Below, piece after piece: positions 1-2,712 of a stretch of DNA of 26,653 nucleotides; position 1 is the first letter of the stretch, and each line of letters opens with the position of its first letter. Made by a program: the position numbers and the translations under genes. Under the pieces are notes generated by a model, which worked only from the letters and a program-made list of their open reading frames with translations, made no database searches and had not been told where the DNA came from. Source of the stretch: a virus. The DNA lies in the IMG/VR virus record IMGVR_UViG_3300023108_002893, positions 1-26,653 of that record, one strand, 5' to 3'.

Positions 1-791
1 TTTTTCCATCCTGCTGCGTCCCAATCAATAGTTCCCAAAAAAGGGTTTGATACTAAATTCCAGCCATTTTCGTCACTATTATTTACTCCTGAATAATTTG
101 GTCTATAGTCAAAATTTTCTGTTAAATCAACAAAACCATTTAATTGTATATTAAAACTTTCTGTAAGAGAGGTTGTAGAAGAATCAAACAAATATATTGA
201 ATAACCTCTTGGCAAAATATCATTTATATTTCCAGGGATTGTCCATCCTATATTTCTATCAACATCAGGTGTTGTTTCATCATAAATATAAGTATTAGTC
301 CAAAAAGAAGGAAAAGAACTTCCGGGTACACCTGTATGAAAAAATCCATAATCGCTTATAGACACTTCAAAAGGCCCTCCATACATTCCCCAACCATCAC
401 AACGCTCAATCCACTTTTGCCATACAACTTCAGAAAGCAATTCTCCTGCAGATGTTGCGCCAAGCCTACCTTTATCAACACTATTATTAATAAAAAATAA
501 GACCCCACCAGATATGTCAGACTCAATATTTAGAACACCTTTTACAAAAATGGTGTCATATAAAATGGTAATATCATTAATTGTAATATCTGTTACAGTG
601 TCTTTTACGTCTATTTCTAATGTGTGATTTATTATAACATTATCTCCACTTTGTGGTATTCCATTGTCCCAAACTAAAGGATTAGACCAAAATCCATCAC
701 TAACAGTTATTTTTGTTGATTGAGAAAAAGATAAATTTTTTAATAAAAAAATTAAAAAAAATATTATTGTTATATATTTTATAGATTTCAT
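1..791 (-). CDS. Secreted Bacteroidetes-type surface protein, 3' part beyond the left edge
   Basis: An open frame starts with ATG at 791 and runs without a stop to the window edge (263 complete codons), so the C-terminus is missing. Residues 1-24 form a clear signal peptide: two Lys near the start, a long Ile/Phe/Leu core and a LSFSQ end typical of Flavobacteriia. Residues about 33-62 contain DGFWSNPLVWDNGIPQSGD, the W-rich, G8-like opening common in secreted Bacteroidetes proteins. Near the edge is GWNLVSNPFLGTIDW, a phrase typical of large exported proteins that often end in a type IX secretion sorting domain; that end cannot be seen here. No Cys follows the signal peptide, so it is not a lipoprotein. 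The gene lies downstream of the DUF1566-like gene after a 122-bp gap with no recognisable promoter. Function is unknown. A host-like exported protein is unusual in a phage and may alter the infected cell surface or be acquired cargo. Confidence 0.8.
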   Translation of the reverse strand, partial: MKSIKYITIIFFLIFLLKNLSFSQSTKITVSDGFWSNPLVWDNGIPQSGDNVIINHTLEIDVKDTVTDITINDITILYDTIFVKGVLNIESDISGGVLFFINNSVDKGRLGATSAGELLSEVVWQKWIERCDGWGMYGGPFEVSISDYGFFHTGVPGSSFPSFWTNTYIYDETTPDVDRNIGWTIPGNINDILPRGYSIYLFDSSTTSLTESFNIQLNGFVDLTENFDYRPNYSGVNNSDENGWNLVSNPFLGTIDWDAAGWK

Positions 792-913
792 ATACTCATT
801 TTTTATATAAATATAATAAACTTTTTAATTATAAATCAAACAGTTACAATAGCCATATTAAAGTTATAGTATAAGGTTAATTTTAATTATAAAATTGTTG
901 AATAGTTAAATTG

Positions 914-1240
914 TTAAGAAGCCCGAACAGCACGAACATAGTAGTAGTAGTTCTTACTGAAGTTGAGCTGGTAACCATCGAGGAAATTCTGTTTCCACGC
1001 AAGGTTGTAACCGACCTCCGTAGAACTCCAATAGAAGACATTAGCAAAACCGCCAATTTCTTCATTGTTTTCGTAAAGCATATTCAATTCGTCTTTTGTT
1101 GGCAATCTCCATCTTGGTCCGAGCTTTTTACAAACTTCAACAGCTTCATGCCAAGTCATACATCCTAAATTATTAGATACTTCTAATCCATTGATTGACT
1201 TTTTACCTTCTAGCAATATGTGTTTTTTAATTACTTCCAT
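914..1240 (-). CDS. DUF1566/Lcl-type C-type-lectin-like protein, candidate DGR variable protein
   Basis: This 108-residue protein has the DUF1566 signature: MTWHEAVEVCKKLG (about 28-41), WRLPTKDEL (44-52), IGGF, then YWSSTE (70-75), W82, a G-Q core and a terminal VRAVRAS. The family has a C-type-lectin-like fold related to FGE-sulfatase domains. Such domains are common scaffolds for diversity-generating retroelement targets, where the C-terminal residues vary. No signal peptide is present. The ATG at 1240 is 8 bp after the stop of the upstream helicase gene, so the two are probably co-transcribed. The last third of the gene has base composition and codon endings unlike the rest of the window, described in its own entry. 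The domain call is firm. The DGR role is an inference from codon pattern, because no reverse transcriptase or template is in view. Without DGR activity it would be a small phage binding protein. Confidence 0.85.
   Translation of the reverse strand: MEVIKKHILLEGKKSINGLEVSNNLGCMTWHEAVEVCKKLGPRWRLPTKDELNMLYENNEEIGGFANVFYWSSTEVGYNLAWKQNFLDGYQLNFSKNYYYYVRAVRAS
917..1042 (-). other. Candidate DGR variable region (VR) at the 3' end of the DUF1566-like gene
   Basis: Residues 67-70, 76-80, 85-90, 92-95 and 97-101 are 24 codons that all end in C or T, 15 of them in C. They encode N, V, F, Y, G, L, D and S, all amino acids reachable from AAC or AAT when adenines are randomised. They are interleaved with invariant family residues (W71, SSTE, AW, Q, G, VRAVRA). 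A hand count over 113 bases of this region gives about 47% G+C, far above the AT-rich surroundings. The 3' end (VRAVRA codons, then stop) would be the fixed anchor. No second copy resembling a template was seen in the window. Confidence 0.55.
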
Positions 1241-1248
1241 ACTAAACG

Positions 1249-2712
1249 TTAAAATTGTAATAACATATAATACAACTTCTTTTTAGGTCTAGATATGGCA
1301 ACATAGTGAACATTTTTTTCTTCTTGATAATTTTCCATATCTGATGTGAATGTATAAAATTCCTTTTTGTTATCTGGTATTTTTACTTCGTTTTTTTCTA
1401 TTATATCTTCTGATATTGAATTTACAACAATACAAGTATTATATTCTTTACCTTTTGATTTATGTATTGTAGTAACAAAGCTGTTATTATTTTGATTGTC
1501 CTCTATAAATTTAATTAAATCATCTTTTGTTCCAACAAAATCTTCTAAAATATATTCAACTCTTTTTTTTATTAAACGATTTTCTGTTCCGCTTTTAATT
1601 TCTTCTATATCTTTAGGTTTAAGATAGTTGAAATATTTCATTGGAACTTTTCTTTTAAGCATATTAAACTCTATAAGTTTTACTATAAAATTTGTTCTTG
1701 CTAATACTGCCACTTCTTCATCACTTTTAATTAATTCAATCAACTTATCAAAACTAACAAAACTCTCTTGTATTTCTCCATCAAAACTGTTAAAAGGAGT
1801 GGCTTTTAAATTTGAAAACTTATTAGAGTTTTCTACTATTTTAGGTGCGCTTCTAAAATTTATAGACAGAGACATTCTTTCTATTTTTCTTCTTTTTTCT
1901 AATCTATCCTCGATGTGGTTGCAATTGCTTCCACTATATCCATAAATTGATTGGTTTATATCTCCTACAAGATAATAATATTTAGCATTTAATCTCATAA
2001 GAATATCCATTTGTATAGCACTAGTATCTTGATATTCATCTAAAAACAAATAATCGTATTTATCTTTAAACATTTTCAACCACTTATTTTCTTTTAAAAG
2101 ATTTCTTACATCAACTAATATGTCTGCAAAATCTCTTTTTCTTTCTTCTTTTAAAAACTTTGAATATTGTATAAAATAATCTGGTATTCTGACTTTTATA
2201 CCGTCAGCTGTTTGCAATTTATAAGAAGATATATTTGAATCAAAAAAATCAGCATCATCATATAAATTTGAAATCTTTTTATCAAACTCAAATTTTTCTT
2301 TTTCAGAAGCTCTTGAGCTTGGTTCATTCTTTTTTTTGTACCAATCTATAAACTCATAAAAATTTGTAACCTTTTTAAATTTACCCATTCTGTGAAGCAT
2401 CCAAAAACAAAAAGAATGTATTGTAGTTATTCTTATATCTTTATTATTTACTCTTTCTTTCAATTCGTCTACTGCAGCGTTTGTAAAGCTAAAGAATATT
2501 ATTTTCTTTGGGTCTACTCCTCTATTTAATAAAACTTTCAACCTCTGAACGCAACAGAAAGATTTACCTGAACCAGCAGTTGAAGACATTATTATAGATT
2601 TCTTTCCATCATATGTAACAAACTTTCTTTGTTCATCTGTTAATTTTGATAACATTTCATCAAACTCTTTTTGTTCAAAAGCATCTATCTGTATTGATTT
2701 ACTTGTCTTCAT
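1249..2712 (-). CDS. UvrD/Rep-like superfamily 1 DNA helicase
   Basis: An ATP-dependent DNA helicase, predicted to move 3'-5' on single strands, for replication restart, recombination or repair of phage DNA. All SF1A motifs are visible in its 487 residues: Q-motif LTDEQRKFV (24-32), Walker A STAGSGKS (44-51), motif Ia FSFTNAAVDEL (74-84), DEYQD (225-229), GDINQSIY (250-257, the UvrD-type motif III), NFRSAP (285-290), VTTIHKSKGKE (413-423) and YVAISRPKKKLY (470-481). It is much shorter than bacterial UvrD (about 720 residues), so the 1B/2B accessory domains must be reduced. This is not the RecD-like Dda of T4. It starts 10 bp after the stop of the 150-residue upstream gene, within a tight run. 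Confidence 0.93.
   Translation of the reverse strand: MKTSKSIQIDAFEQKEFDEMLSKLTDEQRKFVTYDGKKSIIMSSTAGSGKSFCCVQRLKVLLNRGVDPKKIIFFSFTNAAVDELKERVNNKDIRITTIHSFCFWMLHRMGKFKKVTNFYEFIDWYKKKNEPSSRASEKEKFEFDKKISNLYDDADFFDSNISSYKLQTADGIKVRIPDYFIQYSKFLKEERKRDFADILVDVRNLLKENKWLKMFKDKYDYLFLDEYQDTSAIQMDILMRLNAKYYYLVGDINQSIYGYSGSNCNHIEDRLEKRRKIERMSLSINFRSAPKIVENSNKFSNLKATPFNSFDGEIQESFVSFDKLIELIKSDEEVAVLARTNFIVKLIEFNMLKRKVPMKYFNYLKPKDIEEIKSGTENRLIKKRVEYILEDFVGTKDDLIKFIEDNQNNNSFVTTIHKSKGKEYNTCIVVNSISEDIIEKNEVKIPDNKKEFYTFTSDMENYQEEKNVHYVAISRPKKKLYYMLLQF

Follow-up and report, generated by a model that had tools for sequence, protein, structure and literature searches.

An orphan diversity-generating retroelement target on a large phage, probably diversified in trans by a chromosomal element of its inferred Flavobacteriales host

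The target gene and its neighbours

The window, by which we mean the whole stretch of DNA analysed, is a linear fragment of 26,653 bases from an IMG/VR virus record. Near one end, on the minus strand, it carries a short gene recognised as a target of a diversity-generating retroelement (DGR), with its variable repeat (VR), directly downstream of a helicase gene:

1249..2712 (-), UvrD-like helicase gene, directly upstream of the target (Pfam and protein comparison)
914..1240 (-), DGR target gene, encoding a 108-aa DUF1566/Lcl_C (C-type-lectin-fold) protein (ORF, Pfam, structure model)
1046..1240 (-), N-terminal part of the target protein, conserved and non-varying (alignment A2 of 15 phage copies)
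922..1045 (-), variable repeat of 124 bp (alignment with template repeats)
922..937 (-), 3' end of the VR with the template barcode GTTCGTGCTGTTCGGG (barcode comparison)
899..921 (-), IMH-like 3' flank CTTCTTAACAATTTAACTATTCA, just past the VR (flank comparison)

The 108-aa protein matched the Pfam family PF07603 (Lcl_C/DUF1566) with E=1.4e-11, above the curated cut-off. Its structure model (pLDDT 86.5) had as best PDB match the C-terminal domain of Legionella Lcl (8q4e; TM 0.75, 35% identity) and also resembled C-type lectins, so that, by family and by fold, it meets the criterion that a DGR target be a C-type-lectin-fold gene with the VR at its 3' end. No signal peptide was recognisable in the protein, and the closest host relatives of its N-terminus are small Flavobacteriales lipoproteins, in L030. 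We infer that it most likely serves to bind a ligand, which is not identified, whether in the virion or at the infected cell. The phage group also has a non-hypervariable version of the protein: relatives of 144 and 147 aa without any VR pattern are encoded at G037:14242-14676 (-) and G045:43273-43716 (-), between DnaJ-like and ClpP-like genes.

The helicase has a 68.7% identical counterpart in a 232.5-kb virus contig (G042), and its position upstream marks what we read as a phage context for the target gene. We think it unlikely that the contig is chimeric, since the target gene starts 8 bp past the end of the helicase gene and sister contigs flank the gene with phage sequence on both sides. 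At the contig end, positions 3-791 (-) encode a truncated, apparently secreted protein of Bacteroidota type with a signal-peptide-like start, for which we found no Pfam match and no relative among the sister phage contigs.

Variable repeat, host templates and barcodes

The bases shared without variation by the window and five phage relatives were combined into a pattern, which was searched for in 84,980 species genomes, and nearly all matches fell in Bacteroidota, mostly in Flavobacteriales assemblies. They included five clean template repeats (TRs) in Flavobacteriales, in which every variable dinucleotide reads AA; a further TR, L141, came from a sampled search of 399 Flavobacteriales genomes. 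The TRs found match at all but 2-5 of ~72 non-adenine sites. Compared with the TR of L045, the window VR differs at 23 of 52 adenines and at 2 of 72 other bases (p=9e-9), with 15 of 20 AAY codons changed and a total of 16 nonsynonymous and 1 synonymous codon changes. Because the search pattern itself favours matching bases, the count was repeated outside the stretch that it covers, where 17/39 adenines and 2/46 non-adenines differ (p=1.4e-5); keeping in mind that the sites are not fully independent, we take both p-values as indicative only. When 11 related phage copies were pooled, differences lay at 249/561 adenines vs 23/803 other bases. The criterion for a DGR variable repeat, adenine-specific differences between TR and VR, is met.

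The variation is also recent. Two phage copies, G002_2 and G004_1, have the same 186 bp upstream of the VR, and within the VR they differ at 24/51 adenine sites and at 0/73 non-adenine sites. Because the changes fall on adenines and these two copies differ only there, we regard the target gene, on the evidence of sequence comparison, as a real and recently used DGR target. That the gene is a DGR target is what the first-pass annotation had proposed from the codons of positions 917-1042, and both comparisons that it had suggested came out in its favour: copies differing almost only at adenines exist, as TRs in Flavobacteriales chromosomes, and variation among related phages is clustered at template adenines. 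The oddity of composition on which it had relied was likewise borne out, with a G+C content of 44.4% over the 126-bp tract vs 28.7% for the window (only 0.13% of 126-bp windows reach the tract's value); the annotated 47% over 113 bp was slightly high. Against the T-ending background, the tract has 15 C-ending and 17 T-ending codons, so that C makes up 0.47 of its Y-ending codons, compared with 0.26 in the remaining target gene and 0.08-0.24 in the 21 other ORFs. That the presumed variable codons all end in C or T holds for those derived from AAY, though not for every codon of the tract, and the tract overlaps the VR, which is slightly wider at its 5' end.

In three Flavobacteriales loci (L027, L017, L045) an Avd-like gene, the TR and a reverse transcriptase (RT) gene lie side by side, and in L027 and L045 a DUF1566 target gene adjoins them. 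The Avd proteins of these two loci match bAvd (PF22296) above the cut-off; host RTs are 82-84% identical to that of L027 and carry the motifs IGNLTSQ and YVDD. The criterion for a chromosomal DGR, namely an RT with the DGR motif, Avd, TR and target together, is met in L027 and L045, and L027 is set among ordinary, housekeeping-type chromosomal genes. Most targets of the host DGRs themselves are secreted or are lipoproteins, and their N-terminal parts are long. Some host genomes, e.g. those with L024 and L031, hold VRs away from the template.

The templates differ from one another at non-adenine positions just before the final GGG, and these differences serve as a barcode, as adenine mutagenesis leaves non-adenine sites unchanged. 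In hosts, a VR and the TR belonging to it have the same barcode, and the remote VRs L024 and L031 match their own template at these sites, or nearly so. Among the phage copies at least three barcode types occur, two of them within a single array, that of G004. The L141/L045 type is found with zero mismatches in 7 of 11 copies, and the window and G002_3 differ from it at one or two sites; the barcode of G004_2 most resembles the L034/L026 type (1 mismatch vs 4-6) and that of G001 the L027 type (2 mismatches vs 5-7).

The 3' boundary behaves differently. VRs end mostly in GGG followed by CTTYTTAA and TRs in GGG followed by GTTTTAAAC; the flank CTTCTTAACAATTTAACTATTCA of the window corresponds to CTTTTTAACAATTTA, which follows host VRs, and differs from the GTTTTAAACAAAAC that stands behind host TRs. 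A 3' boundary of IMH type that differs between VR and TR, a further DGR criterion, is thus present. Directly 3' of the VR the phage-type CTTCTTAAC is found in all 11 copies whatever the barcode, with G003_1 reading CTTCTTAAT. Because the flank stays phage-type while the barcodes differ, we interpret retrohoming to the IMH as fitting these data better than exchange with host genes.

The same observations bear on the possibility that diversification takes place only in the host chromosome and that already varied VRs reach phages through homologous recombination and are then passed from phage to phage, which we consider unlikely. The framework of the VR is common to host VRs, and some phages hold a non-hypervariable relative of the gene. 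Further, the target gene forms tandem arrays in the sister contigs, with five (G002), three (G004) and two (G003, G005) copies, and these arrays, when mapped onto the 232.5-kb relative, lie at three or more different places. Recombination clearly moves VRs also, since G003_1 and G004_1 carry identical VRs on different N-termini. However, exchange with host VRs would often import CTTTTTAA, which follows the GGG there, and all 11 phage copies (11/11) have the phage-type CTTCTTAA at this point despite differing barcodes next to it; moreover, several phage VRs equal the template at 73/73 non-adenine sites.

Downstream of many host VRs there is a GC hairpin, ACCGCGAAGCGGT. A hairpin of the form ACCGCG(A/T)AGCGGT occurs within ~90 nt after the host VR genes of L015, L021, L023, L027, L030-L033 and L040, and it is a candidate for a DGR target-recognition element. 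The GC-rich hairpin is missing after the phage VRs, most of which are followed by AT-rich inverted repeats or none, not above the level of shuffled sequences; this absence tells somewhat against action of a host DGR on them.

Searches for reverse transcriptase and template in phage records

With stops read through, no RVT_1 match was obtained in 51 virus records, that is, the window and 50 others, comprising its sisters, relatives found through UvsX and another 30 virus contigs that encode related proteins. The set includes orphan-VR contigs of 180, 161, 89, 88 and 79 kb. A clear VR is present in most of the 30 contigs, though not in all (none showed in the 292- and 306-kb records), and among these 30 a clear VR without RT was seen in contigs of 180, 161, 89 and 75 kb. 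No TR was found in the six VR-bearing contigs of the window's phage group, two of which (G002, G005) extend ~15 kb or more on either side of the arrays, or in their relatives, nor did the contigs of 180 and 161 kb, whose VR is related, contain a TR-like second copy. A strict TR pattern gave no matches in IMG/VR. A looser pattern recovered 29 virus contigs with phage-borne TRs of other types, 26 of them with an RT in the same locus; these control TRs match the framework at only 39-54 of 73 non-adenine sites, and the host TRs at 66-72, except for L026 (53), because its shorter template shifts the ungapped comparison. The 29 phage DGRs were rejected as template source for their poor framework match. 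Among the RTs encoded in virus contigs, the closest share 64% or 38-46% identity with the host RT across most of their length, and these too were set aside as a source of the RT, the best being 64% identical and the contigs having no TR of the window's type.

The first-pass annotation had placed TR and RT outside the window or elsewhere in the genome. Neither lies in the window, and the TRs were found beside RT genes in Flavobacteriales chromosomes, so that the first part of this statement stands, while for the second the evidence points to a host chromosome, not to the phage genome. The RT search that it had called for gave none in the 51 virus records, among which there is no complete VR-bearing genome of the window's phage group, and RTs in Flavobacteriales chromosomes.

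An ordinary phage DGR, with RT and TR in a part of the genome outside these contigs, nevertheless has to be weighed, as the contigs are fragments (the window covers 26.7 kb, and ~55 kb of the 232-kb reference are not covered by any VR-bearing contig) and remote targets within genomes are known (PMC10907252). We hold this explanation to be quite improbable, given the absence of an RT from all 51 records, the large orphan-VR contigs among them, the absence of a TR from the VR-bearing contigs even where both sides of the array are available, and the distance of the nearest virus-contig RTs, which lack a TR of the window's type. Moreover, a single phage TR does not fit more than one barcode in one array. 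A complete phage DGR of BPP-1 type is therefore unmet in both its requirements, RT and TR, within the records and contigs scanned, with the proviso that the genome of the window is incomplete. That no DGR is at work, the tract being due to chance, to a bias in composition or to selection acting on a lectin loop, is practically untenable: VR-less DUF1566 proteins exist, but so does, in other genomes, a template with adenine at all variable positions whose adenines the changes hit, the C3 bias does not extend beyond the tract, and both the window/L045 counts and the 11-copy adenine counts contradict it.

Bacterial assemblies can lack an RT as well. Of 25 bacterial genomes that match the framework, 16 showed none, and because of this the absence of an RT from fragmented assemblies can be an assembly effect. 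Two bacterial assemblies, G025 (L030, L040) and G030 (L041, L042), have two or three VRs and no RT that we could find.

Possible action of a host element on a phage gene

Cumulatively, the target gene is probably an orphan DGR target on a large Flavobacteriales phage, diversified in trans by a host chromosomal DGR, the trans action being inferred. During infection, host RT and Avd would copy the RNA of the host TR into cDNA with random bases opposite adenines; this cDNA would be installed in the phage VR by retrohoming, guided by the homology of VR and TR and by the IMH-like 3' end, and the phage may in this way gain new versions of a C-type-lectin-fold binding protein without an RT, Avd or TR of its own. 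What the sequences by themselves establish is the identity of the VR, its adenine specificity and recent variation, the existence of host TR-Avd-RT loci and the lack of an RT or a TR-like copy in the phage records and contigs scanned. Trans action during infection, which has not been observed, the identity of the host and the role of the protein are inferred. Dependence of phage VR diversification on host RT and TR is supported by the template match and the barcodes only, and for the link to the host there is, besides the template, only the evidence of distant cultured Flavobacteriales phages, without a CRISPR or isolate link.

The closest precedent is the DGR of Bordetella phage BPP-1 (mtd/avd/TR/brt), which likewise combines adenine-specific TR-to-VR transfer, a C-type-lectin-fold gene with the VR at its 3' end and an IMH-type boundary. 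Unlike the present case, BPP-1 carries all parts itself, whereas in the phage here we detected neither RT nor Avd nor TR, and BPP-1 has a GC-rich hairpin after the VR, which the window VR lacks. When avd, TR and brt are supplied on a donor plasmid in the laboratory, they act in trans on a BPP-1 target carried by a phage (PMC3240598), and because of this we regard action of a host on a phage as feasible by analogy, though not shown. Remote or trans targets are also known from Thiohalocapsa PB-PSB1 (PMC10907252), with TR and VR in one genome; here the VR is in a phage and the TR in bacterial chromosomes. The Flavobacteriales chromosomal DGRs (L027, L017, L045) agree with the phage VR in template, barcode and IMH-like 3' end, but the phage protein, with 108 aa and no signal peptide, is unlike their mostly secreted or lipoprotein targets with long N-termini. 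Phage DGRs from metagenomes (PMC8144416) and crAss-like phages (PMC12386605) similarly have phage receptor-binding or C-type-lectin targets, but they were detected through an RT adjoining the target; remote targets would be missed, by its own statement, in the former survey (PMC8144416). It is thus already known that DGRs exist, that phages carry them and that they can have trans targets inside the same genome. In the literature searched, which did not cover most subscription papers and preprints, we came upon no description of a host DGR serving targets on a phage.

If host-driven diversification is true, a phage can obtain accelerated protein evolution without carrying the machinery, viruses can exploit host DGRs, the DGR content of a host is tied to the adaptability of its phages, barcodes are a sequence record of past hosts, and surveys that start from the RT miss a class of phage targets. 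We incline, if only slightly, to the broader view that, among large phages of Bacteroidota-like hosts, many have orphan VRs that the chromosomal DGR of each host rewrites, with barcodes recording the last one. At least three VR frameworks occur in phage contigs, some of 161-180 kb, without a detected RT. In two further VR frameworks pairwise differences lie mainly at codon positions 1 and 2 (e.g. 18/11/1); their templates were not found, and for the second VR family none was present in 395 Bacteroidia genomes. Phage GenBank records yielded nothing but distant DUF1566 matches.

One framework, without a detected RT, is represented by L197, L201, L203-L206, L208, L214, L241 and L252, and another, likewise without one, by L212, L218, L225, L243, L245 and L267. 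VRs with the same framework as that of the window were seen in other virus contigs (G006, G007/G008 and G009; L006, L008, L012 and L013), in proteins of 120, 208, 214 and 219 aa, and G009 carries two such VRs in tandem.
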